Origin: a virus
DNA: 24,397 bases
Direction: 5' to 3' (one strand)
Virus record (IMG/VR): IMGVR_UViG_3300009705_002687
Span: 1-24,397 of that record
Shown here piece after piece: positions 1,012-24,397 of this stretch (position 1 is its first letter; each line of letters opens with the position of its first letter). The notes beneath the pieces are model-generated. The model was not told the DNA's origin. It ran no database searches and saw only the letters and a list, made by a program, of their open reading frames with translations. The position numbers and the translations under genes are program-made.

Positions 1012-1527
1012 TTACGGAAACATTTGAACTACAATAATTGCATTCAATTTTTTATTGTAAACAACGTGGTGACCATAGTGACTTGGTAATATATAACCTT
1101 CATTAAGGTAATCTCCATATTCAGTTAAAACATTCATTTTATGGTATTTTGAATTCATAAAATTATTATGTGCTTGTGTAGCAATTTCTAAATCTGTTTT
1201 AGTTGAGTGGTAGGTAAATGCGGTTACATTTTCTGATGAATTAGTATATTTTGAATTACTTGCGATTTTAATTCTATCAGATGGGTATTTATATTTTAAG
1301 TTAGGATTAGTATGAGATACTTGTTTGACACTTATAATTGTACTTAAATAATTAGCTTGTATTTTAGCTCCATTATTTATTAAAGTATCGGTAATAAATG
1401 TAGTTAACCCTCTTTCACTTCTTTCTTTATTTACTAAATTTAGTAAATGTTTTTCTATTTCACCTAAGTTTTGTGAATAACCTAGACTACAAATAAGTGT
1501 TAGTAATATTAGTAGTATCTTTTTCAT
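1012..1527 (-). CDS. Secreted CAP/SCP-domain protein (YkwD-like)
   Basis: From this start the protein has 171 residues and opens with a clean signal peptide: two Lys, a Leu/Ile-rich core and a probable cleavage after GYSQ. An upstream in-frame ATG at 1554 would add nine residues before the signal peptide, so 1527 is preferred. The mature part looks like a bacterial CAP (SCP-like, YkwD) domain: NKERSERGL near the start, SHTNP with the conserved His, SSENV with the conserved Glu, an FMNSKYHKMNVL block matching the W-x-x-S-x-x-H-R-x-x-I/M-L motif, and a final strand ending VVQMF. Secreted bacterial CAP proteins have no single established function. It is a lone minus-strand gene between two + strand genes. 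TATATTTG, matching the Bacteroidota -7 box, sits four bases before the start with no convincing -33 box, so a nearly leaderless transcript is possible. Likely acts in the periplasm or outside the cell. Confidence 0.82.
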   Translation of the reverse strand: MKKILLILLTLICSLGYSQNLGEIEKHLLNLVNKERSERGLTTFITDTLINNGAKIQANYLSTIISVKQVSHTNPNLKYKYPSDRIKIASNSKYTNSSENVTAFTYHSTKTDLEIATQAHNNFMNSKYHKMNVLTEYGDYLNEGYILPSHYGHHVVYNKKLNAIIVVQMFP

Positions 1528-1531
1528 ATAA

Positions 1532-1539
1532 CAAATATA
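1532..1539 (-). promoter_or_regulatory. Possible Bacteroidota -7 box for the CAP gene
   Basis: On the minus strand this reads TATATTTG, an exact match to TAnnTTTG. It ends four bases before the chosen start, so transcription would begin at or very near the ATG. No TTTG is found 19-20 bases further upstream, so the promoter is only half supported. Confidence 0.35.
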
Positions 1540-1571
1540 AGCCTTTAAAACCAATTATACTAATAATATAC

Positions 1572-1592: not shown

Positions 1593-3506
1593 ATGAAATT
1601 TATCACACTACTAAACGAAGGTAAAAAGGAAAACCTTATTTCAAAGTACGGTAACGAACTTATATTCGATAATAATGACTTTATATCGACTATTGTTGAT
1701 AGTGACCCCTCAAGTACTAAGAAGTATTCTGAGTGGACTATTAATCAAGTAATAGAGTTCATGAAAGTTAATGATGGAGCATCACTTCCCGATGTTATAA
1801 CTCAAATAACTGACTCAATAAAAACTTTTAATGATGTCGCTCAATCAATAACGGATGAGGATATTACATTTGCTAAAAAATTACATTCAGGTATTGATGA
1901 TACATACATTAAAGGTGGTCCAAGAGACATTTATAGATATAGGTCTTATTGGGAACTTCAAACCTTATTATCCGCAATAGATAAAAGAAAAAAAGATAAA
2001 GAACAGGAAGTTGAAGCCAAAAAAGATGTCGATAAGATTTATGAAGACAGTCGTTTTTTAATTGTCCAACCTTATTCACATAAGGCAAGTTGTTATTATG
2101 GTGCAGGTACTAAATGGTGTACATCTTCAAAAGATAATGAGAACTACTTTGATAGATATGGGACTGATGGTAGATTAATCTATATTATAGATAAACAATC
2201 TAAGGACACAACATTCGGTAAGATGGCAATACACATTAATATAAACGATAATGTATGGATTTACGACCAAAAAAATGAACAAAGAAGTGAACAGTTTTTA
2301 TTAGACCGATTTGAACCTATTGCCGAAACCATCAAGAAAATGATTAAGGGGGATGATGATTATACTATTCTTAAAAAGATTGCGGAAGGAAAATTGACTC
2401 CGTCAACTCAAAAACTAACTGCCCCCTACTTTAAAAAAATGGATAAAGAAGACGTTTACCTATCATTTGATGACGTTAAGGAATATCTTAGTTTATTTTC
2501 TCAGACGTTAGAAGATTATGAGATTGAGTCATACGCTTATGCTGTGGATTCGCCATATGGGTATGAATCGTACTACTATGACCCGTACAACTTTATGGAT
2601 GAGTTAAAAGAGGGATATCCTTTATATGACTTTAATGCTGGTCATTTAAAAAAATTAAAAGAAGTGTTAGAAATTGCTGGTAGTGATTTAGTCAAAAGTT
2701 TTAAGACTACGCCAAACGTATCTAAAGAAAAATTAATAAGGTTTAAAGAGTTAGGCCACGATTTAAAGGATTACTATGAGTTATACGACTTATCAATATT
2801 TGACAAAGATGGTAGTTTAGAGAAAATGGGTGAATTTATTGGTAGTTTTGATGCAAAATTCTTAGATACTTTTGATGATACATATGGGTACGCTAAAAAT
2901 CAGGCTATGGAGGTAGGTGTGCAAAAAGCTTTAAAAGAAGAATTATGTGAAATATACAAACCAATAGGTATAGAATTAGAATCCGCTTGTTTCTATAAAT
3001 ACTATATTAGTATTAGTAAATTAATCTCAATGTATGAAGAAAACTTGGAGTACAATAAAAATTTATCGTTAAATGAAATGTTAATAGATTATGTTGAAAA
3101 TAATCTAACTATTAATGTTGAAGAGCCACATAATTTAGCTTATGAAAACATAGACCAAGAAACATTTGCCTATTACTTTAACGACAACATGGACTCGGCA
3201 TTTGATAATCTATTGGAGAGATTACAAGACTCGGACTCCTATATCGATTTAAAGGTTTATCGGGAAATTTATAATTTTATCGAAAATAAGTATGGGTGGA
3301 ACAAAACAGTTTCAGTTGAGCCATTAAGTAAGAATAAATCGAAGGATACTGTTATTGAGTTTTTTAAAATTAATCCCGAAACTAATAAAATTGATTTTCA
3401 ACTAAAAAAATTGGGTAATTACGGAATTAAAAAAGGTAGTGCTAAATTGTCAACAATTCAAAAATTAATGACTAACTACCAATTATTTGACCCTTTTGAT
3501 GATTAG
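1593..3506 (+). CDS. Large phage protein of unknown function with YGAGTKWCT motif
   Basis: A 637-residue soluble protein with no signal peptide or membrane segment. I do not recognise a named function. The N-terminus (FITLLNEGKKENLI) resembles openings of other T4-like phage proteins of unknown role. A lysine/glutamate-rich helix near residues 128-150 leads into a distinctive block at about 150-235: a strand FLIVQPYSHKASC, then YGAGTKWCT at residues 169-177, an aromatic Y/F-rich stretch, an LIYIID strand and KMAIHI. I have the impression of this Cys/Trp block in other phage proteins, but cannot name the family. The rest is rich in Asp, Tyr and Lys and probably mostly helical. It has its own late-type motif 13 bases upstream. 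It ends tail-to-tail with the minus-strand peptidase gene, the two stop codons sharing bases 3503-3506. Confidence 0.85.
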   Translation: MKFITLLNEGKKENLISKYGNELIFDNNDFISTIVDSDPSSTKKYSEWTINQVIEFMKVNDGASLPDVITQITDSIKTFNDVAQSITDEDITFAKKLHSGIDDTYIKGGPRDIYRYRSYWELQTLLSAIDKRKKDKEQEVEAKKDVDKIYEDSRFLIVQPYSHKASCYYGAGTKWCTSSKDNENYFDRYGTDGRLIYIIDKQSKDTTFGKMAIHININDNVWIYDQKNEQRSEQFLLDRFEPIAETIKKMIKGDDDYTILKKIAEGKLTPSTQKLTAPYFKKMDKEDVYLSFDDVKEYLSLFSQTLEDYEIESYAYAVDSPYGYESYYYDPYNFMDELKEGYPLYDFNAGHLKKLKEVLEIAGSDLVKSFKTTPNVSKEKLIRFKELGHDLKDYYELYDLSIFDKDGSLEKMGEFIGSFDAKFLDTFDDTYGYAKNQAMEVGVQKALKEELCEIYKPIGIELESACFYKYYISISKLISMYEENLEYNKNLSLNEMLIDYVENNLTINVEEPHNLAYENIDQETFAYYFNDNMDSAFDNLLERLQDSDSYIDLKVYREIYNFIENKYGWNKTVSVEPLSKNKSKDTVIEFFKINPETNKIDFQLKKLGNYGIKKGSAKLSTIQKLMTNYQLFDPFDD

Positions 3507-4564
3507 TAGATATGGTTACTCAATAATTTTTGTCTAATAACCTCATACAATTCTAATGTTTCTTCATCATCTAAGTAAATTATTTCACCTGTAATTTTAC
3601 TTTCAATCTCTACTCCACTACTTGAAATAGTGATGGAATTATATTCAGTATCGTATACTTCTTTATCTTCTTCAAAATCCTCATCATCATAGTCCTGAAC
3701 ATCAAATAATGGGGTAGTAGTTGACCAATCAGGTTTTTGATAATTATATATGAACTTACTATTACCTAATTCGTCAACTAAACGGTTAGCGAATGTAATT
3801 GCCCGTTCAACATCATCGACCACTACAAATTCTTGTTCTGTATGCATATTATAATATCCACATGAGAAATTAATACAACTAAAATCGCCCTTACGTTTAA
3901 TTTGAGAAACATCGGTATATGGATGGGATTGAGGGTCTGCAGTAATTCCCATCACCTTATTAAATAATGGAAGTGCGACATTGATAAAATCCCCATCTTT
4001 TTCATATAGCCTAGTACCTGAACAAATCTCGGTAATTAAGTGATTACCTGGTGCATCAAATTGTACCGCATATCCTACATCAGTCAAAAAGTTAGTATCA
4101 CACTTACTTGAACCGTGACACCCTGTTTCTTCAGATACAAATAACCCTATTTTTACTTTAGGAAGGTCATTTAGAAGTTCAAGGGCAATAAACACTCCAC
4201 ACTTATCATCTCCTCCAATACCTGTCGGTTTACCGTCTTCGGTATACCCTTTCAGGGATAAGAACTCTTCATTATCATATGTATGACCAAAGGTATGAGG
4301 TTTGATAAGTGACTCTTCTTGAACAATGATTTTATCGACCAGTGAATGTACCGTATCAGTATGAGCAATAAACATTGGATAAAACTCTCCCTCATCTAAT
4401 ATACCTTTAGTAGCATAAACATTATTCATATCATCAGTATAGTACTTAACATTTGGCATTGAGTCCATTACACCACATAAGTACTGTACCATATCATCTT
4501 CCTGATACGTTTTAGTAGGTATTGATAGTACTTCCTTTAGTCTATTGAGTCGTTTATTGTCCAT
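3503..4564 (-). CDS. M20-type zinc metallopeptidase
   Basis: A 353-residue cytoplasmic enzyme of the M20/M28 di-zinc peptidase superfamily, expected to release amino acids from small peptides. The metal-binding pattern is complete: His68 and Asp70 in AHTDTVHS, Asp119 in GIGGDDKCG, the Glu145-Glu146 pair in SEETGCHGS (general base and ligand), Asp170 in FDAPG and His241 in MHTEQE. The usual roughly 110-residue lid/dimerisation domain of M20 dipeptidases appears shortened, since little separates FDAPG from the last His block. The C-terminal 85 residues form an acidic extension (DYDDEDFEEDKE) with no known role. Substrate is unknown; peptidase-T-like aminopeptidases are the closest in feel. It lies 62 bases downstream of the Clp gene on the same strand and has a near-consensus Bacteroidota promoter of its own. 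Its stop overlaps that of the convergent + strand gene. Confidence 0.85.
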   Translation of the reverse strand: MDNKRLNRLKEVLSIPTKTYQEDDMVQYLCGVMDSMPNVKYYTDDMNNVYATKGILDEGEFYPMFIAHTDTVHSLVDKIIVQEESLIKPHTFGHTYDNEEFLSLKGYTEDGKPTGIGGDDKCGVFIALELLNDLPKVKIGLFVSEETGCHGSSKCDTNFLTDVGYAVQFDAPGNHLITEICSGTRLYEKDGDFINVALPLFNKVMGITADPQSHPYTDVSQIKRKGDFSCINFSCGYYNMHTEQEFVVVDDVERAITFANRLVDELGNSKFIYNYQKPDWSTTTPLFDVQDYDDEDFEEDKEVYDTEYNSITISSSGVEIESKITGEIIYLDDEETLELYEVIRQKLLSNHIY

Positions 4565-4626: not shown

Positions 4627-6645
4627 TTAATTATCTTTCTTAATGATTAATTCTTCATCGTCCTTCATATCAATAATAAATGGTTCATTCTCATTGATGT
4701 TACCTCGTAGTATTTCCTCAGAAATTAAATCCTCAATTTTTTCTTGGATAGCTCGATTAATTGGACGTGCACCATACTTCTCGTCAAAACCTACCTTAGC
4801 GATGTATTCTTTAACTGACTCAGTTATAGTCATTTCATACTTCATCTCAAATAAACGTTTCGTAAGTTTTAGTAACTCGATATCTACAATCTTAACAACT
4901 TCTTTCTCTTTTAGTGGATTGAAAACTACTACCTCATCAACACGATTTAAGAATTCAGGGGTAAAATGGTTCTTTAACTCTTTTTGAAGAATTGTCTTTT
5001 TCATGTCTTCATTATTGGACATTCTATTCTTAGTGTCAAACCCAACACCTACTCCAAAGTCTTGAATTTTTTTAACCCCTAAGTTTGATGTCATAATGAT
5101 TAAGCAATTTTTAAAGTTAATCTTACGACCGAAACTATCAGTTAAGTGTCCATCATCCATCATTTGAAGTAACAATGAGAAAATATCTTTATTCGCCTTT
5201 TCAATCTCATCGAATAAAACTACAGAATATGGTTTGTTTTTAACTGCTTCAGTTAATTGACCTCCTTGGTCATGACCGACATATCCTGGAGGAGAACCAA
5301 TTATTCTCGACATTGAGTACTTCTCTTGGTATTCTGACATATCCATTCTAATAAGTGAGTCTTCGCTACCAAAAATTTCTTTAGCTAATTGTTTAGCTAA
5401 ATGTGTCTTACCTACACCTGTCGAACCTAAAAAGATAAAAGAACCTATAGGTCGGTTAGGGTCTTTAATTCCGATACGATTTCTACGTATTGCCTTTGAT
5501 ATCTTTTCAACGGCAAATTCTTGACCAATTACCGAACGGTTGAGACTATTCTCGAGACCCAATAAAGATTCTTTATCATCTTTATTTAACTTCGTTACAG
5601 GTATTTTAGTCATAGTAGATACTACTTCATAAACCATATCTTCGGTAATAGGTTTACGTGTGTTATTTTTTGACACCTCAAACTTTACCTTTTCGTTATC
5701 TAATTTTTTAAGAATTTTTCTTTCTTTATCTCTTAATTCTGCTGCCTTTTCATATTGTTGAGATTTAACTACCCGTATTTTCTCCTCTTTTATATTAATT
5801 GCACGTGACCTAAGTTTTTCAATAACCTCAGGAAGTTTAACATTAATCTGTGCCTTTGCTCCTACCTCATCCATAATATCAATCGCCTTATCCGGAAATT
5901 CACGGTTAGTAATATATCTATCCGCTAATGTCACACAGGCCTTTAACGACTCGGGGGTATACGTCACTTTATGGTGTTCTTCATAACGAGATTTTAAGTT
6001 ATCGAGAATGATTAAAGTTTCTTCGGGTGTTGACCCGTCAACAATAACCTTTTGGAAACGACGCTCAAGAGCTCCATCCTTTTCAATGTTTTCACGGTAT
6101 TCATCAAGAGTCGTTGCCCCAATACATTGTAGTTCACCTCTAGCTAATGCAGGTTTAAAGATGTTAGAGGCATCTAAAGAACCTGATGAGTTACCAGCAC
6201 CTATAATTGTGTGTATCTCATCAATAAAAATTATAATATCTGAATTTTCATTTAACTCATCTAAGATGACCTTTAATCTCTCTTCGAATTGTCCACGGTA
6301 TTTAGTTCCAGCTACAATTGAAGTCATATCTAAAGATACTATTCTTTTATCTGATAAATTTTGAGGACAGTCCCCTTCAAATATCTTCATTGCTAATCCT
6401 TCGACAATTGCCGTCTTACCCGCACCAGGCTCCCCAACAATAATTGGGTTATTCTTCTTTCTTCGAGAAAGAATCTGGGCTATTCGATTAATCTCTCGTT
6501 CACGTCCAACTACTGGGTCAAGTTTACCCATTTCGGCATACTTAATTAAGTCACGAGAAAAATTATCTAAAACGGGAGTTCTAGAGTTATTAATTTCTTT
6601 GGGTTTACGTCCTCCCTTTTCATTAGGGTCTACTGATTCTATCAT
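4627..6645 (-). CDS. ClpC-like AAA+ unfoldase lacking the N-domain
   Basis: A 672-residue HSP100 ATPase that should unfold proteins and thread them into a protease. D1 has Walker A GEPGAGKT (71-78), Walker B with FIDEIH (140-145), and the Arg finger at RRF (195-197). A short middle domain carries a UVR motif (QQYEKAAELRDK, about 297-308), as in ClpC. D2 has Walker A GSTGVGKT (407-414), Walker B VVLFDE (475-480) and sensor 2 GARPINRAI (625-633). The loop between SNLG and FLNRVDE contains VGF (534-536), at the place of the (I/L/V)GF tripeptide by which ClpA, ClpC and ClpX dock on ClpP. The roughly 150-residue ClpC N-domain, where adaptors and substrates bind, is absent: only about 27 residues precede D1. 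No ClpP gene is in the window, so host ClpP is the obvious partner. A near-perfect host-type promoter lies upstream, and a double-UVR gene is divergent. Confidence 0.93.
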   Translation of the reverse strand: MIESVDPNEKGGRKPKEINNSRTPVLDNFSRDLIKYAEMGKLDPVVGREREINRIAQILSRRKKNNPIIVGEPGAGKTAIVEGLAMKIFEGDCPQNLSDKRIVSLDMTSIVAGTKYRGQFEERLKVILDELNENSDIIIFIDEIHTIIGAGNSSGSLDASNIFKPALARGELQCIGATTLDEYRENIEKDGALERRFQKVIVDGSTPEETLIILDNLKSRYEEHHKVTYTPESLKACVTLADRYITNREFPDKAIDIMDEVGAKAQINVKLPEVIEKLRSRAINIKEEKIRVVKSQQYEKAAELRDKERKILKKLDNEKVKFEVSKNNTRKPITEDMVYEVVSTMTKIPVTKLNKDDKESLLGLENSLNRSVIGQEFAVEKISKAIRRNRIGIKDPNRPIGSFIFLGSTGVGKTHLAKQLAKEIFGSEDSLIRMDMSEYQEKYSMSRIIGSPPGYVGHDQGGQLTEAVKNKPYSVVLFDEIEKANKDIFSLLLQMMDDGHLTDSFGRKINFKNCLIIMTSNLGVKKIQDFGVGVGFDTKNRMSNNEDMKKTILQKELKNHFTPEFLNRVDEVVVFNPLKEKEVVKIVDIELLKLTKRLFEMKYEMTITESVKEYIAKVGFDEKYGARPINRAIQEKIEDLISEEILRGNINENEPFIIDMKDDEELIIKKDN

Positions 6646-18373: not shown

Positions 18374-19096
18374 ATGAAAATATTAGGACCAAACGACACC
18401 GGCAAAGGAATATTGATTGAGTGGGATGCAGGGTTTATAAACCCAAACGATAAGCGTAATGCTGACATTATAAAAGAATCTTATGGTAAATTAGACCATT
18501 CTAAACCATTTGAATTTTACGCAGTGTTACAAAAGTATAATACTCCGAACAGGAATGGAAGAATATATCCCGAAAAAATACTAAGAAGAGAAGGTGAGAA
18601 ATATAAAGATGCCATAAAAAAAGGTTTATCAATATCTGAACTTAATCATCCTGAATCATCTTTAATTGATTTAGACCGTGTATCACATTTAATTACTGAT
18701 ATATGGTGGGAAGGAAACGTATTAATGGGTAAGATAAAATTATTAACATCACCAGGATTTCATGATAGTGGTATAGTATCTTGTCCGGGAGACCAAGCGG
18801 CGAATCTTATGAGACAAGGGGTTACGATGGGAGTATCGTCTCGTGGAGTAGGTTCATTAGTTAAGAAGGGTGAGAAAAACGAGGTACAGGAAGACTTTGA
18901 GTTAATATGTTTTGATTTAGTTTCATCTCCATCCACACCAGGAGCATACTTATTCCTTAATCAAGACGATAGAATGAAGTATGATGAGAATATTGAAGAG
19001 GAGACCGTACAAAGGAGTTCAATGACAGAACCTGAAAAAGGTTTAGGAAAATCACTTGACTTAATGAAAAAATTATCCGATTATTTAGGGTATTAA
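18374..19096 (+). CDS. Prohead maturation protease (T4 gp21-like)
   Basis: A 240-residue serine protease of the gp21 type. The catalytic His is His92 in ISELNHPES, and the nucleophile is in GVSSRGVGS (Ser155 or Ser156). A conserved FDLVSSPSTPGAYL block (Asp181) follows, as in the family. The front part carries FYAVLQKYNTPNRNGRIYP, also typical. It is packed inside the prohead, activates itself, and cuts the scaffold, core and capsid proteins after (L/I)xE before DNA packaging. Its targets are probably the helical protein at 16434, the scaffold at 22594 and the capsid N-terminus. The C-terminal 45 residues, acidic then helical, may be a propeptide. The next small gene follows after 21 bases. 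Confidence 0.93.
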   Translation: MKILGPNDTGKGILIEWDAGFINPNDKRNADIIKESYGKLDHSKPFEFYAVLQKYNTPNRNGRIYPEKILRREGEKYKDAIKKGLSISELNHPESSLIDLDRVSHLITDIWWEGNVLMGKIKLLTSPGFHDSGIVSCPGDQAANLMRQGVTMGVSSRGVGSLVKKGEKNEVQEDFELICFDLVSSPSTPGAYLFLNQDDRMKYDENIEEETVQRSSMTEPEKGLGKSLDLMKKLSDYLGY

Positions 19097-19117: not shown

Positions 19118-19336
19118 ATGGAAACAATGCAAGACAAATACTTTGTAGCAAAAGTACAGTATGATTTACCTGATGAGAATACAGGTAAAATTAAGAAAAT
19201 TAGAGAGGAAAAATTGGTTAAAGGTTTTAGTATAACAGATGTTGAATCTAAAGTGACTAACAGTTTTGAAGGATTCACATATGATTGGAGAATTACCGCA
19301 TGTGTTGAAAGTAAAATTGATGAGGTATTTGAGTAA
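19118..19336 (+). CDS. DUF4494-like small protein
   Basis: A 72-residue protein starting METMQDKYFVAKVQYDLPDENTGKIKK. The arrangement of a strand (Y-F-x-A-K-V-x-Y), a turn rich in Asn/Gly/Lys, IREEKLVKGFSITDVESKV and a second aromatic strand resembles DUF4494, a small domain seen in Bacteroidota and their phages, whose function is unknown. The match is by eye and moderate. A shorter start at METMQ residue 4 is possible. It is the last gene before a terminator and so ends the prohead protease unit. Confidence 0.75.
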   Translation: METMQDKYFVAKVQYDLPDENTGKIKKIREEKLVKGFSITDVESKVTNSFEGFTYDWRITACVESKIDEVFE

Positions 19337-19363
19337 AATTAAATCACACATTAAAAAAATAAG

Positions 19364-19389
19364 AATCGGGATACCCCCGATTTTTTTTT
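19364..19389 (+). terminator. Intrinsic terminator after the DUF4494-like gene
   Basis: A 7-bp stem AATCGGG / CCCGATT with a five-base loop runs into nine Ts. It separates the prohead protease unit from the exported-protein pair. Confidence 0.88.
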
Positions 19390-19429
19390 GCCTTATAATG
19401 AATAAAGTTATCTTTTTTAAATTAACAGA

Positions 19430-19437
19430 TATTTATA
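19430..19437 (+). promoter_or_regulatory. Late-type motif TATTTATA before the exported-protein pair
   Basis: Perfect TATTTATA after a terminator, but 44 bases before the start at 19482 instead of 11-13, so this unit would have a longer leader. It is the best promoter candidate for the two exported proteins. Confidence 0.5.
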
Positions 19438-19481
19438 AGGGATAATAATATATTATTACAAACGCTTATATATACCCTTAG

Positions 19482-20801
19482 ATGTGTCGATTTTTAATAG
19501 TACCTCTAATATTACTACCCTTTTTCTTATCAGCTCAAAGCACCCAACATGTTTTCAGCTCGGTAGAGGTAGAAAAATGTGGAACTGACGAAGTCCACAC
19601 AAGAGCTATGGAGGACCCAGAATATTCACGGGATTATATGAAAGTTTTGAAATTTAATCAAAATTCTCACAAAAACATCCAAAGAACGGCTCCTGACCCT
19701 ATTATTGTACCTGTTATTGTACATGTTATACATGAGGGAGAGGATTATGGAGTAGGTTCTCACTTGACGGAGGAATTTGTGAAGGAAACAGTTACTAATC
19801 TTGCTGAGAATTTCGCAGGAGTATTTTCTGATTTATCTGACGCAAATACCCAAATCGATTTTTGTATTGCTGGTCTATCACCATCGGGTGATGATATTGA
19901 TGGTATTCGCTATTATGATTGGGGAGATTTGGGATTAGGGGATATTGATAATGTATATAATACTCATCTAAGTATGTACTCCGCATTATCTTATGCGTCA
20001 TTTAACTATTGTAATATATACGTAGTACCTTGGTCGGGTAATCCACTCGGATTCGCTTACACTCCTCCTGCCCCATATGGGGTGTATGTAAGGACTAATG
20101 CTTTTGGATTTACATCAAGTACTAATTTTGGATTAAATAGGACTTTAGTTCACGAGATGGGTCATTATTTAGGGTTATACCATATTTTTAATATTAATGC
20201 TTCGTGCGATAGTGTTGATGAAGAGGTAAATTGCTTGCAACAAGGGGATTATGTATGTGATACCCCTCCCACCTTAGTAAATTGGAGTTGTAATAATCCT
20301 ACATGTCCCGAACTAAATCCTCTATTAGATAATTATATGGATTACTACGCCGACCCTTGTTGCACAAGATTCACATCTGGACAATCAGATAGAATGCATG
20401 GTATGTTGGTTTATAGACCCTCACTGATAACTGATGGGAGTGTTTGTGATGTTGAAGATACTTGCCCATATGATTTTGATGGGGATGGTATTGTTGGAGT
20501 TTCTGATTTGAATGTGTTTCTATCTAATTATGGAACTAATGGTGTTGGAGTTGATGAATTAATGACATTCCTTGAATATTATGGGATGGATTGTACTACA
20601 GGAAGTATTATTGATATGCCAAAACCTCAACCTATAATAGAAAAATCAATCAGTGAAGTAATTAAATCATCTATTATTGGTATAGACGGTAGGGTGATAT
20701 CGGATGTTAGTAGAATATCACCTGGCCTTTATATAATAAAGACTGAATGGTCAAACGGTTTTATCACCACAAAAAAAATATTTTATCAAAATGAAAAGTA
20801 A
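19482..20801 (+). CDS. Secreted M43 metalloprotease with T9SS type A sorting domain
   Basis: A 439-residue exported zinc protease. Residues 1-19 form a signal peptide ending near SAQS. The catalytic domain has HEMGHYLGLYH (224-234), the extended HExxHxxGxxH site, then GDYVCDTPP (255-263), NYMDYYADPCC with the Met-turn (284-294) and FTSGQSDRM (297-305). This order is that of M43 (cytophagalysin/ulilysin, PAPP-A-like) proteases. Paired cysteines suit an extracellular fold. Residues 331-342 form an EF-hand-type calcium loop (DFDGDGIVGVSD) within a dockerin-like segment to about 371. The last 50 residues resemble the T9SS type A sorting domain (ISPGLYIIKTEWSNGFITTKKIFYQ). A stop codon directly precedes the ATG, fixing the upstream limit. 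It should be made in the phage-infected cell and sent to the host surface or medium. It overlaps the next gene by 11 bases. Confidence 0.92.
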   Translation: MCRFLIVPLILLPFFLSAQSTQHVFSSVEVEKCGTDEVHTRAMEDPEYSRDYMKVLKFNQNSHKNIQRTAPDPIIVPVIVHVIHEGEDYGVGSHLTEEFVKETVTNLAENFAGVFSDLSDANTQIDFCIAGLSPSGDDIDGIRYYDWGDLGLGDIDNVYNTHLSMYSALSYASFNYCNIYVVPWSGNPLGFAYTPPAPYGVYVRTNAFGFTSSTNFGLNRTLVHEMGHYLGLYHIFNINASCDSVDEEVNCLQQGDYVCDTPPTLVNWSCNNPTCPELNPLLDNYMDYYADPCCTRFTSGQSDRMHGMLVYRPSLITDGSVCDVEDTCPYDFDGDGIVGVSDLNVFLSNYGTNGVGVDELMTFLEYYGMDCTTGSIIDMPKPQPIIEKSISEVIKSSIIGIDGRVISDVSRISPGLYIIKTEWSNGFITTKKIFYQNEK

Positions 20802-22437
20802 ATTATTTGCTCTCCTAATAGGACTCATACATTTTAGTGTAGTTGCTCAATGTGACTTAAGTATTAATAGTTGGAATGCAACTACTGGCGATATTGTTAT
20901 TGAGGCTATCAATAGCGAAAACTGTGGATGTAATGAATTTACAACAGAAGGAAATACGTGTGAGAATAGCGGCAGTCCTTTCGTAAATAACAACACAACT
21001 GTTAGTCATATAGTTTTAGGACTACACTCCCCTGGATTAGATTATAATTGGGGTTGTACTGGAACTGTTAACCATCCTGGTTGGACGTTTAAGACTTTCA
21101 CTTTATTTGGGAATCAGGAATTAGAGAGTGGGGATACTTGGAGTGCAAATGTATATGATACTTCTTTAGCGAGTGATTGCTGGGCTGAGATACTATCTAA
21201 TGATACTTTGTGTACTGAGATTGTTGTATGGCAGATTAACTTATCTCGTACATCCTCAGTAGACGAAGGAGGTTGGGCGGTTAATGGAGGTGGTGCCTTA
21301 CAAACACAAAACTATCCTGATGTAAATATATTTAATAATTCGATATCAAGTTGTCCTCCACCTGACGCACCTGATGCCGTGATAGGAAATATTGAGTTTG
21401 AAACTGGATGTATAGGGGATGATTCGTACTACGAGGTAACATATATTATTTGGAATTATGGTCAAGATATAATAACTGATTATTGTGTAGAAATATGGAA
21501 TGAAGATGTATATGATTGTTACGATTCCGACTCATCAGGGGATGGTAATTTAGGAATACCTCCAGGATTTGGTCAAACATTTACATCCTCCCCACTCCAA
21601 GGTCCTTGGAACGAAGGTGGATTTTTCGTTATTGAAGTAAGTGATGTTAACGATGAGATAATAACGGGAAATAACATTACTACAGTTTTCTTTCCTGAAT
21701 TATTAGACTGTCCTATAGAATGTGAAAGTGATACTATTATAGAATATATCAATATTACAGATACTCTTTATGTGGAGGTAATCGATACTATCTACGTAAA
21801 TATTATTGATACTTTATATATTGAACTACCTCCAGATACTATTATAGAATATGTGGATATCCTAATTTATATCACAGATACTATCTATGTAGATGTCGTA
21901 GATACTATCTATGAGACTGATACAATAGAAATTATAGAATATATAGACGTAATAGATACGTTATGGTTAACTGAGTATATCTATGATACTATATATGTAG
22001 AAACTATTGAGTACATCTATATCACAGATACTATAGAAATATTAGTCGATAACTACATTTACTTAACAGATACAATTACAATCACTGAGTATATAACACA
22101 ATACATCGATTGTGAGACTGGTGAGCCATGTGATGGAATAGTAGGATGTACAGATAACTCAATTTTTGTACCAAACACCTTTACACCAAACAATGATGGT
22201 GTTAATGATACCTTCTATGCAGTAACCGATTCAGTCTGCTGGTTAACATGGAACTTACAAATCTATAATCGTTGGGGTGGTATCGTATGGGAGACTAGCT
22301 TAGTAAATGATTTTTGGGAAGGACAAAGTAGAAGTGGACATTGGTTAGTTCCAGACGGAGTATATGTATGGAAGATAAAAGCTACCCAATCAGGAGGTGC
22401 TACTGAGATTCAGGGATACGTAACAGTATTTAGATAA
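20791..22437 (+). CDS. Secreted repeat protein with T9SS type B (CHU_C) sorting domain
   Basis: A 548-residue exported protein. Residues 1-20 are a signal peptide ending VVAQ. Residues about 21-190 are a Cys/Trp-rich beta domain that I do not recognise. Residues about 195-305 look like a CARDB-type Ig-like domain (DAVIGNIEFETGC ... YYEVTYIIWNYGQDIITDYCVEIW). Residues about 312-440 are a low-complexity stretch of about a dozen DT(I/L) units, with alternating aromatic/Ile and Asp/Glu/Thr. The last 95 residues are a clear gliding-motility-associated C-terminal (CHU_C) domain, the T9SS type B sorting signal: FVPNTFTPNNDGVNDTF, LQIYNRWGGIVWE, W and PDGVYVWKI. It likely ends up attached to the cell surface or released. 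It overlaps the protease gene by 11 bases, so the two are co-expressed and may act together. Confidence 0.92.
   Translation: MKSKLFALLIGLIHFSVVAQCDLSINSWNATTGDIVIEAINSENCGCNEFTTEGNTCENSGSPFVNNNTTVSHIVLGLHSPGLDYNWGCTGTVNHPGWTFKTFTLFGNQELESGDTWSANVYDTSLASDCWAEILSNDTLCTEIVVWQINLSRTSSVDEGGWAVNGGGALQTQNYPDVNIFNNSISSCPPPDAPDAVIGNIEFETGCIGDDSYYEVTYIIWNYGQDIITDYCVEIWNEDVYDCYDSDSSGDGNLGIPPGFGQTFTSSPLQGPWNEGGFFVIEVSDVNDEIITGNNITTVFFPELLDCPIECESDTIIEYINITDTLYVEVIDTIYVNIIDTLYIELPPDTIIEYVDILIYITDTIYVDVVDTIYETDTIEIIEYIDVIDTLWLTEYIYDTIYVETIEYIYITDTIEILVDNYIYLTDTITITEYITQYIDCETGEPCDGIVGCTDNSIFVPNTFTPNNDGVNDTFYAVTDSVCWLTWNLQIYNRWGGIVWETSLVNDFWEGQSRSGHWLVPDGVYVWKIKATQSGGATEIQGYVTVFR
21724..22110 (+). repeat. 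Degenerate DT(I/L)-Y/E coding repeat
   Basis: About a dozen irregular units around GATACTATCTATGT encode DTIYV, DTLYI, DTIEI and similar. Unit spacing varies between about 8 and 14 residues. It forms the long linker between the Ig-like part and the sorting domain. Confidence 0.75.
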
Positions 22438-22478
22438 CGATTATTTAGGTCGTATAATATAACATATTTAAAAACAAG

Positions 22479-22505
22479 AATTGTGGTAAACCTCGATTTT
22501 TTTTT
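22479..22505 (+). terminator. Intrinsic terminator after the exported-protein pair
   Basis: An imperfect 9-bp stem AATTGTGGT / ACCTCGATT with one T-T mismatch and one G-T pair runs into nine or more Ts. Weaker than the other terminators, but correctly placed about 40 bases after the stop. Confidence 0.65.
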
Positions 22506-22545
22506 GCTATATGTAGAATAAAACGTATTTTTTTCAATTCACGTA

Positions 22546-22553
22546 TATTTATA
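22546..22553 (+). promoter_or_regulatory. Late-type motif TATTTATA before the scaffold gene
   Basis: Perfect TATTTATA followed by ATAAAA, after a terminator and 40 bases before the scaffold start. A TATAAATA, the classical T4 late box, lies at 22561-22568, so the exact promoter is uncertain. Confidence 0.55.
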
Positions 22554-22593
22554 ATAAAACTATAAATAAATATTTTGCAAAAATAAAACTAAA

Positions 22594-24066
22594 ATGGCAG
22601 AGAAAAAACAAAATTTAGTCGAAGAAGCGCTATTACAAATGAGGAATTTGGAACAAGCCGTTACGGAGAATGCAAAAGGAATACTTGCTTCTACAATGAA
22701 GCAAGAAATCAGTGAATTAGTAAAAGAATCTCTATCTGATGAGATTGAAGACGAAGTGTCTGTCGAAACAATGGAAAGTGAAAAACCGAAAAAAGGTGTA
22801 AATACAGGGAAATCTGTTAAACACGAAACAAAGGAACAAGATGAACTTGACATAGAAGACGACATGGAGGTAGATGATGAAATTGAAATGGATTACGAAT
22901 CTTATGAAGATGAGGACGAAATTGAAATGGCATCTGATGAAATGCTTATGATGGATTTACCAGGAGATGAATTTGAAGTGGATGATGAAGAAGAAATTCT
23001 TTTACCGCTTGATTTAACTGGTGCATCTGACGAAGAAATCCTTAAGGTCTTCAAGGCTATGGGTGAAGAAGACGGAATCGTTGTAACACAAGACGGTGAC
23101 GAAATCACACTTAAAGACGAAGAGGCTGACGTTGAATATCAAATTCAAATGGAGGAATTCGGAGGTAAGAAAGGAGACGACTCTAAATCTCATAAGGACT
23201 ATGAGGAGTCTAACGAAGGATACGGAGGTAAGAAAGGCGACGATTCAAAATCCCACAAGGATTATGAAGAATCAAATGAAGGATATGACGAATCTAACGA
23301 AGGAGACGAAGTTGTTTACGAAATCGAACTTGGTGAAGAAGATGATGAGGAGTATGACAAATATCACGACGCTGAAAAGGACGACGCGGCTCATATTAGA
23401 GATTTAGAAATCGATATGGATGATGACGCTGAGAAAACTGAAGCAAGTGAGGAATGGGGTTCTGACAAACATGAATACAGACGTAAGGATGTAGACGGAG
23501 TTGAAAAGAAAGCTGGTGTTAGAAAAGGACACTATAAGGATTACGAAGAAGCTAAAGAAGGTATGATTAGAAGTCATGCGGTCGGTTCTAAAGCGTCATC
23601 CCAAAAGTCGAAAGGTCTTAAGAAACCAGCAGCTATTCCAAATAAGTCAAGATACAACGAGTCAACACTACAAAAAGAAGTGGGTCAGTTAAGAGAGAAG
23701 AATGAAGAGTACCGTAAAGCACTTAACATTTTTAAAGAAAAACTTAACGAAGTCGCGGTTTTTAATTCAAATCTAGCATACGCAACTCGACTGTTTACTG
23801 AGCATTCGACAACAAAACAAGAAAAAATAAACATTTTAAGACGTTTCGATTCTGCGGATACAATCAAAGAATCAAAAGGTCTTTATAGACTAGTTAAAGA
23901 AGACTTAGAATCAAAAGGAAATTCTTCAGTCGTAACTGAATCAGTTGCAGCTAAAGTTCAGAAATCTCCATCTAGAGGTTCGGCGACAAATCTTATCGAA
24001 AATAAAACTTACGAAAATCCTCAGTTCATGAGAATGAAGGATTTAATGAGTAAACTTCAAAAATAA
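22594..24066 (+). CDS. Prohead core scaffold protein (T4 gp22-like)
   Basis: A 490-residue, extremely acidic protein placed between the prohead protease and the major capsid gene, as gp22 is in T4. Residues 1-50 are helical (LVEEALLQMRNLEQAVTENAKGIL). Residues about 50-135 are rich in Asp/Glu, followed by a small ordered part (LDLTGASDEEILKVFKAMGEEDGIVV). Residues 190-231 are two identical 21-residue repeats. The C-terminal part, about 355-450, has a coiled coil (LQKEVGQLREKNEEYRKALNIFKEKLNEVAVFNSNLAYATRLFTEHSTTKQEKINILRRFD), the best preserved part of phage gp22-like proteins. It should form the inner core round which the capsid assembles, then be degraded by the gp21-like protease. It is longer than T4 gp22 (about 270) because of the acidic and repeat part. 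The capsid start follows after 25 bases. Confidence 0.88.
   Translation: MAEKKQNLVEEALLQMRNLEQAVTENAKGILASTMKQEISELVKESLSDEIEDEVSVETMESEKPKKGVNTGKSVKHETKEQDELDIEDDMEVDDEIEMDYESYEDEDEIEMASDEMLMMDLPGDEFEVDDEEEILLPLDLTGASDEEILKVFKAMGEEDGIVVTQDGDEITLKDEEADVEYQIQMEEFGGKKGDDSKSHKDYEESNEGYGGKKGDDSKSHKDYEESNEGYDESNEGDEVVYEIELGEEDDEEYDKYHDAEKDDAAHIRDLEIDMDDDAEKTEASEEWGSDKHEYRRKDVDGVEKKAGVRKGHYKDYEEAKEGMIRSHAVGSKASSQKSKGLKKPAAIPNKSRYNESTLQKEVGQLREKNEEYRKALNIFKEKLNEVAVFNSNLAYATRLFTEHSTTKQEKINILRRFDSADTIKESKGLYRLVKEDLESKGNSSVVTESVAAKVQKSPSRGSATNLIENKTYENPQFMRMKDLMSKLQK
23161..23286 (+). repeat. Tandem duplication of 63 bases in the scaffold gene
   Basis: Copy 1 is 23161-23223, copy 2 is 23224-23286. Both encode the same 21 residues (GGKKGDDSKSHKDYEESNEGY). 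I count 11 base differences, all at third codon positions and all synonymous. Confidence 0.92.
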
Positions 24067-24091: not shown

Positions 24092-24397
24092 ATGGGAGCA
24101 TTATTAGAATCAGGTCTTGTTGGTAACATCGGTTTAAAACACTTGAAGGTTATCAAAGAAGACACAATTAACAAATGGGATAAATTAGGATTCCTAGAAG
24201 GACTTAACGGTCACGTAAAAGAGAACATGGCACAATTATATGAAAACCAAGCGTCTCACTTAATAAACGAAGCATCTTCATCAGATAACTCAGGTTCATT
24301 TGAGACAGTTGTTTTTCCAATCATTAGAAGAGTTTTCTCTAAATTATTGGCAAATGATATAGTATCAGTACAAGCGATGAACTTACCAATCGGTAAG
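24092..24397 (+). CDS. Major capsid protein (T4 gp23-like), N-terminal part
   Basis: The first 102 residues of the capsid protein; the gene runs off the window's right edge. It begins MGALLESGLVGNIG and shows the gp23 family patterns of an early helical propeptide (LGFLEGLNGHVKENMAQLYENQ), then FETVVFPIIRRVFSKLLANDIVSVQAMNLPIGK, close to the FP(I/V)IRRVFP...L(I/V)AN-x-(I/L)V-x-VQPM-x-x-P-x-G block of T4-like capsid proteins. LINEASS at 58-63 gives a likely gp21-type cleavage after Glu60, near the known processing position 65 of T4 gp23. Position directly after the scaffold gene agrees. No late-type motif lies in the 25-base gap, so it is probably transcribed with the scaffold gene, or from a promoter inside it. 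Confidence 0.93.
   Translation, partial: MGALLESGLVGNIGLKHLKVIKEDTINKWDKLGFLEGLNGHVKENMAQLYENQASHLINEASSSDNSGSFETVVFPIIRRVFSKLLANDIVSVQAMNLPIGK

Follow-up and report, generated by a model that had tools for sequence, protein, structure and literature searches.

A predicted exported M43 protease and T9SS type B protein inserted among the head genes of a T4-like phage

The window, by which we mean the whole stretch of DNA analysed here, is a 24.4 kb fragment (24,397 nucleotides) of a virus record that carries a T4-like head block in the order terminase, portal, gp21-like protease, DUF4494 gene, P0001 and P0002, gp22-position gene and gp23. Profile searches matched the flanks to Peptidase_S77 (gp21), Portal_T4 and a T4-type terminase, with gp23 at 24092. 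The initial annotation had placed the pair between gp21-like and gp22-like genes; the former is identified by profile, whereas the gp22-position gene returned zero profile matches and takes its name solely from position and conservation. The portal is 38% to those of the Flavobacterium immuto phages, the nearest cultured phages with a Bacteroidota host, and the cultured kin of the window phage infect Flavobacterium; the top-scoring portal match overall is a phage recorded from Microcystis. The phage is T4-like and probably has a Bacteroidota host. The features of the locus are as follows:

18374..19096, + strand: gp21-like prohead protease, left neighbour (PF03420 3e-23; phrog_207 5e-43)
19118..19336, + strand: DUF4494 protein, left border of the insertion (PF14902 1.4e-9), with gp22 directly next in the relatives from other phages (72/73)
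19338..19462, + strand: regulatory element copy 1, with terminator hairpin (19361-19385), T-run and TATTTATAA at 19430-19438
19482..20801, + strand: M43 metalloprotease P0001, 439 aa (signal peptide, residues 1-18; PF05572 3.2e-12, over the cut-off)
19536..19580, + strand: segment after the signal peptide of P0001, QSTQHVFSSVEVEKC, a partner-like stretch, then Cys33-Gly34 (cysteine-switch-like)
20151-20183, + strand: zinc motif of P0001, HEMGHYLGLYH, of the M43B form HExxHxxGxxH
20331-20345, + strand: Met-turn of P0001, NYMDY, as in M43B
20463..20594, + strand: dockerin-like repeats of P0001, residues 328-371 (residues 324-352 match the 120-aa partner proteins at their dockerin-like end, at about 50-72%)
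20691..20798, + strand: weak type A-like T9SS tail of P0001 (sub-threshold TIGR04183 and NF033708; hhalign to phage type A tails)
20791..22437, + strand: CHU_C surface protein P0002, 548 aa (signal peptide, residues 1-19; PF13585 8.5e-18)
20848..21363, + strand: N-domain of P0002, nearly virus-restricted (NSENCGCNEFT...WQINLS...QTQNYPD)
21730..22128, + strand: DTIYV-type repeat spacer (stalk) of P0002, about 12 D-T-I/L-x repeats, read from sequence
22165..22428, + strand: CHU_C (T9SS type B) sorting domain of P0002, residues 459-546 of 548, at the very C-terminus
22454..22581, + strand: regulatory element copy 2, ahead of gp22, aligning to copy 1 and to the empty-site DUF4494-gp22 intergenic region
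22594..24066, + strand: gp22-position scaffold-like protein, right neighbour; the order gp21-DUF4494-gp22-gp23 recurs in relatives

The P0001 and P0002 ORFs (19482-20801 and 20791-22437, both +) overlap by 11 b, and each protein starts with a hydrophobic signal sequence and then A|Q, bearing out the overlapping pair with signal peptides described in the initial annotation. This start matches the Q-rule, which is specific to Bacteroidetes Sec substrates (PMC5837995). The call of an M43 protease likewise stands: the Peptidase_M43 match exceeds its cut-off, the zinc motif and Met-turn are intact, and the zinc ligands and catalytic residues are invariant in an alignment of seven phage M43s. Thus, by motif and profile P0001 belongs to peptidase family M43 (M43B), with predicted proteolytic activity. 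Among PDB sequences it matches mirolysin (9.5e-19), its best solved homologue, and ulilysin (1e-18). The catalytic domain is like those of these two M43B enzymes, the former a KLIKK protease of Tannerella forsythia, which also has a Cys-Gly soon after the signal peptide and a T9SS tail; however, both are cellular enzymes, whereas P0001 is phage-encoded, its N-terminal segment is partner-like, its tail is weak and it has dockerin-like repeats. Mirolysin travels as T9SS cargo and owes its latency to Cys23, right after its signal peptide, Cys23-Gly24 being a proven cysteine switch (PMC8259862). Residues C33, G34 and D36 of P0001 are invariant among the seven phage M43s and, by analogy with mirolysin Cys23, a similar Cys33-Gly34 latch likely holds P0001 latent.

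The two proteins differ in how firmly their sorting ends can be called. The type A-like end attributed to P0001 survives in part: over its C-terminal half it is like genuine type A tails of phages (71% probability by hhalign against a profile of these, in a database of one), but the first half of the type A domain is missing, and the curated models score under their cut-offs (TIGR04183, 12 bits against 23; NF033708, 14.9 against 40), so that P0001 lacks the above-cut-off Por_Secre_tail that defines type A cargo. P0002 has the defining features of type B cargo, namely a terminal CHU_C domain over both curated cut-offs (PF13585, E 8.5e-18, 64.7 bits against 27; TIGR04131, 35.8 bits against 35), as had been claimed, and a hydrophobic start with VVA|Q (by a loose pattern). 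The sole PDB sequence match of this domain is the Aureispira grappling hook protein (5.5e-6). The CHU_C domain and signal peptide suggest that P0002 is exported via the host T9SS. The earlier proposal that the phage uses this machine to place both proteins outside the cell is borne out in part: the signal peptides, the type B domain and the Flavobacterium-infecting kin speak for it, whereas the type A call is weaker than had been stated. The N-domain of P0002 has 20 invariant columns across 36 sequences and zero PDB sequence or fold matches; a cohesin or other known fold was rejected, with Foldseek giving no match at E <= 0.001 for a structure model of moderate confidence (pLDDT 69, pTM 0.67). 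CARDB, named earlier among the profiles to search, gave no Pfam match up to E 10. When the pair was examined for a cellulosome-type dockerin interaction, the dockerin matches obtained were weak and zero cohesin was found in P0002.

The pair is not part of a conserved locus and is an insertion between two copies of an intergenic terminator/promoter-like element. We surveyed 77 loci having DUF4494 and the start of gp22: the gap is 93-180 b in 72 of them, and in the four loci from the window and its sister contig it is 3257 b. Counting other phages only, the site is empty in 72/73 and holds the P0001/P0002 pair in 0/73, and so the conservation between gp21 and gp22 for which the initial annotation had proposed a survey did not materialize. 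One locus (L135) bears a different insert, with a gap of 477 b and an ORF resembling part of a type I restriction specificity protein. The element that empty sites carry (a terminator hairpin, a T-run, TATTTATAA and a leader) is found on both flanks of the pair. Copies 1 and 2 align with a score of 95, as against 36 +/- 5.5 for 1000 dinucleotide shuffles, none of which reached 95, and copy 2 aligns to the DUF4494-gp22 intergenic regions of pair-less phages with scores of 148 and 156 (shuffles about 34-39). The two copies are the expected trace of a gene-cassette insertion with duplication of the regulatory unit. Of the flanking terminators claimed earlier, the upstream one is strong (copy 1 hairpin, z -3.9) and the downstream one weaker (z -1.3). 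The motif TATTTATWA was dropped as a candidate phage promoter, being only mildly enriched (10 against 4.9 expected, with 3/100 shuffles having as many). The arrangement is real and the possibility of a chimeric contig, raised earlier as a reason for doubt, is eliminated, since the junctions are reproduced in two sister contigs: 3300009425_002477 (L002), with 99.8% identity to the window over 14.9 kb, spans both, and 3300027813_003721 (L017), with 99.7% identity over 2.4 kb, spans the 3' one. In T4-type phages, mobile regulatory cassettes termed PeSLs are known, in which genes are inserted between core genes along with stem-loop and promoter units. The present insertion is alike in joining gene insertion between core genes with regulatory units, but differs in that the recipient intergenic terminator and promoter-like unit stands twice.

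Beyond the window, P0002 belongs to a family that is nearly restricted to viruses. A search of IMG/VR gave 84 confirmed stretches on more than 80 contigs from several phage lineages, and that of 84,980 species genomes gave one hit, although both scans shared one pattern set and distant cellular relatives might thus be missed. The single hit, on a Pseudomonadales MAG contig, was rejected as a host gene, for the contig bears an elemo-type terminase (Flavobacterium elemo/Cellulophaga type) about 10 kb away. The family occurs in window-type T4-like phages (G002, G003, G017, G018 and others), in a second T4-like group (G004, G010, G015, G030) and in elemo-type phage relatives, where it often lies just upstream of the terminase and portal. 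In the N-domain tree, where gene order alone decided the grouping of several rows and the branches of L163 and L165 are long, the window sits in a clade (100/99) mostly of elemo-type sequences and apart from its T4-like kin L009, L013, L163 and L165, suggesting exchange between unrelated phages. The N-domain dN/dS of 0.055-0.20, in pairs where dS was computable, indicates purifying selection. Q-rule-like signal peptides, as detected by a loose pattern, are present in 63/64 unique proteins of the family. The GenBank phage set holds zero phages with the N-domain or the partner gene and zero full-length relatives; its only yield was CHU_C stretches in two uncultured huge-phage records and, in a gut record without annotation, one M43 stretch.

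Most CHU_C genes of the family adjoin a partner gene. Its product is exported, is about 120 aa long and combines a conserved Cys-rich part with a single dockerin-like repeat. A profile search recovered 64 partner loci, of which 63 have a CHU_C gene near (within 300 b in 55) and the remaining one is truncated by the contig end. The partner profile matched dockerin chains in the PDB (best 3e-4), and a structure model of the protein was discarded as too poor (pLDDT 59). Residues 1-32 of P0001 are 62% to the L072 partner gene (signal peptide and ...QHVFSSV..EK). Having a partner-like start and a dockerin-like end, P0001 looks like a product of an M43 domain taking the place of the middle of a partner gene.

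An M43 profile scan of IMG/VR gave at least 122 contigs, 80 of which were kept for analysis, and Q-rule-like signal peptides were seen by a loose pattern in all 73 M43 proteins with a complete N-terminus. These enzymes are found in two settings. In the first, M43 adjoins and precedes the gene of an N-domain/CHU_C protein (the window, L240/L241/L246/L248, L079 and L261) or is fused to that protein (L073, L075 and L076); the dockerin-like part is kept in the separate M43s examined and missing from the fused ones, as expected if it joins M43 to the CHU_C protein. In the second, larger class, most genes lack a sorting tail and the location is often a lysis region; these CTD-less M43s bear dockerin-like repeats, and zero CHU_C genes were found in the 24 contigs searched. 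Of 73 M43 genes without a CHU_C neighbour, the upstream side is cut in 14; in 30 of the 59 uncut ones a holin-cluster gene (representative matching phrog_3427, E 1e-17) lies at most three genes upstream, and an amidase (phrog_822, E 1.6e-53) or DUF5675 gene lies at most three genes downstream in 21/73. Both sides are so occupied in 13, and 27 uncut genes have neither neighbour. This proximity to holin and amidase/DUF5675 genes points to a role in lysis or egress. In the window-type T4-like phages G018, G020 and G021, an M43 gene for 671 aa stands on its own at another place.

The pair is read most economically as acting at the surface or outside the cell. We posit, with confidence evenly balanced between belief and doubt, that it is a late, host-exported surface protease with its anchor, which aids release and/or destroys receptors. 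What the sequence shows is the set of domains, the catalytic motif and the signal peptides, together with the insertion between duplicated elements, the spread of the family and the linkage of the genes; how the proteins are exported, latched and docked, when they act, on what target and to what benefit, we infer. P0002 would be exported by Sec and then, through its CHU_C domain, by the T9SS to the host cell surface, where its N-domain would be displayed outward on the DTIYV stalk. P0001, a zinc protease similar to mirolysin, would leave the cell as a zymogen latched by its cysteine and be brought to the same cell surface either by its weak type A tail or by docking of its dockerin-like repeats to P0002; activated late, it might cut host surface or matrix proteins, easing release and/or destroying receptors, such that progeny are not re-adsorbed. 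As the pair is an insertion, its place among head genes tells little about timing; the relatives in lysis cassettes favour a role in egress. Against this reading count the tail of P0001 under the cut-offs and the N-domain fold without a known match; against docking to P0002 counts the presence of the repeats also on CTD-less M43s, with no CHU_C gene in the 24 contigs searched. We offer more tentatively, as something we would on balance doubt, a shared mobile virus-specific module: a T9SS-displayed anchor (N-domain and CHU_C) would dock either the dockerin-bearing 120-aa partner or M43 for surface remodelling at release, and elsewhere M43 alone would serve as a Bacteroidota-specific lysis factor in the lysis cassette.

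The main rival to an egress role is receptor destruction, and the two can coexist. That the pair acts in superinfection exclusion only, masking or removing surface receptors with no part in lysis, agrees with the predicted surface targeting of P0002 by its CHU_C domain, but we consider it unlikely in that the M43 relatives cluster with holin and endolysin genes that act at the end of infection. More doubtful is a lysis factor working mainly in the periplasm or outer membrane with the sorting tails secondary: while the sub-threshold tail of P0001 and the CTD-less M43 genes adjoining holin, amidase or DUF5675 genes in phages with elemo-type terminases would suit it, the coupling or fusion of M43 to CHU_C in the window and at least three other contig groups argues for the surface. 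M43-dockerin-sorting-tail layouts are typical of Bacteroidota proteins, and the pair could accordingly be seen as passing host genes, neutral or of benefit to the host, whose extracellular activity has no phage-specific role. Cryophage offers a precedent in its variable T9SS glycosidase-type cargo (PMC7468147); yet the near confinement of the N-domain family to viruses (84 IMG/VR stretches against one species-genome hit, itself beside a phage terminase) and its purifying selection make this quite improbable. Least probable of all are virion decoration or tail proteins acting at entry, for although the pair sits among head genes, nearly all family members have signal peptides and the site is empty in nearly all other-phage relatives with the same head genes.

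Returning to the reading of a host-exported protease and anchor, phage-borne T9SS cargo is not new as a kind, contrary to the initial annotation, which knew of no described system: the report on Cryophage describes three type A cargo genes and the same proposal of host T9SS hijack (Nat Commun 2020, PMC7468147). The likeness lies in phage genes with T9SS sorting ends, variable among related phages, and in the proposed use of the host T9SS; P0001 and P0002, too, are sorting-domain genes inside a bona fide phage genome and absent from close relatives. The Cryophage cargo differs in consisting of type A endoglucanase, GH39 and PA14 proteins, and the excerpted text mentions neither a CHU_C family of type B nor a pair with M43, and neither a partner gene nor a link to lysis cassettes. 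Other exported and unexplained proteins of Bacteroidota phages, namely ORFs of crAss-like phages that bear T9SS sorting domains (PMC6949934) and Q-rule proteins of P. gingivalis phages (PMC10367356), have other domains and no protease-anchor pair. As far as the open-licence literature was searched, what appears to be new is a type B family restricted to viruses and accompanied by a partner gene, the passage of this family between phage lineages, its coupling or fusion with M43, and the presence of M43 genes in lysis cassettes. Absent from the initial annotation were the virus-restricted CHU_C family and its dockerin-like partner, the bracketing of the insertion by duplicated regulatory elements, the M43 genes in lysis cassettes and the M43-CHU_C fusions. 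If the proposal is true, a dedicated protein family gives phages of an abundant marine phylum the use of the machine with which their hosts export surface proteins, the lysis genes of many of these phages have beside them one for an exported and probably latent protease, and phage exit from cells with T9SS-built surfaces becomes directly testable. A large set of viral genes would also gain its first identity; none of the tested M43 and CHU_C proteins matched a PHROG.

Several further genes were observed in these phages. L166:3470-3847 (G018) codes for a 125-aa protein with little beyond a signal peptide and a CHU_C domain (PF13585 5e-14), which might act on the T9SS as a decoy or competitor. 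L169, L170 and L171, from phages G035, G014 and G007 of the CHU_C/M43 set, hold clear type A (Por_Secre_tail) cargo genes; those on L169 and L171 lie near a gene whose product, of about 350 aa, bears a Q-rule-like signal sequence. LR745206.1 and LR756502.1, unannotated uncultured phage records of 635-642 kb, hold CHU_C-like stretches. On four elemo-type contigs a gene judged from its sequence to be glycosyltransferase-like lies near the CHU_C module (L033:4041-4802). In the window itself, 4627-6645 (-) and 3503-4564 (-) code for a phage-encoded ClpB-like AAA protein and an M42-like peptidase (PF05343 7e-7), and 1012-1554 (-) for a small protein with a Q-rule-like signal peptide, itself without a Pfam match; an exported protein resembling it in a comparable neighbourhood of G018 (L165:3016-3585) has a CAP/SCP match (PF00188, 4e-7).
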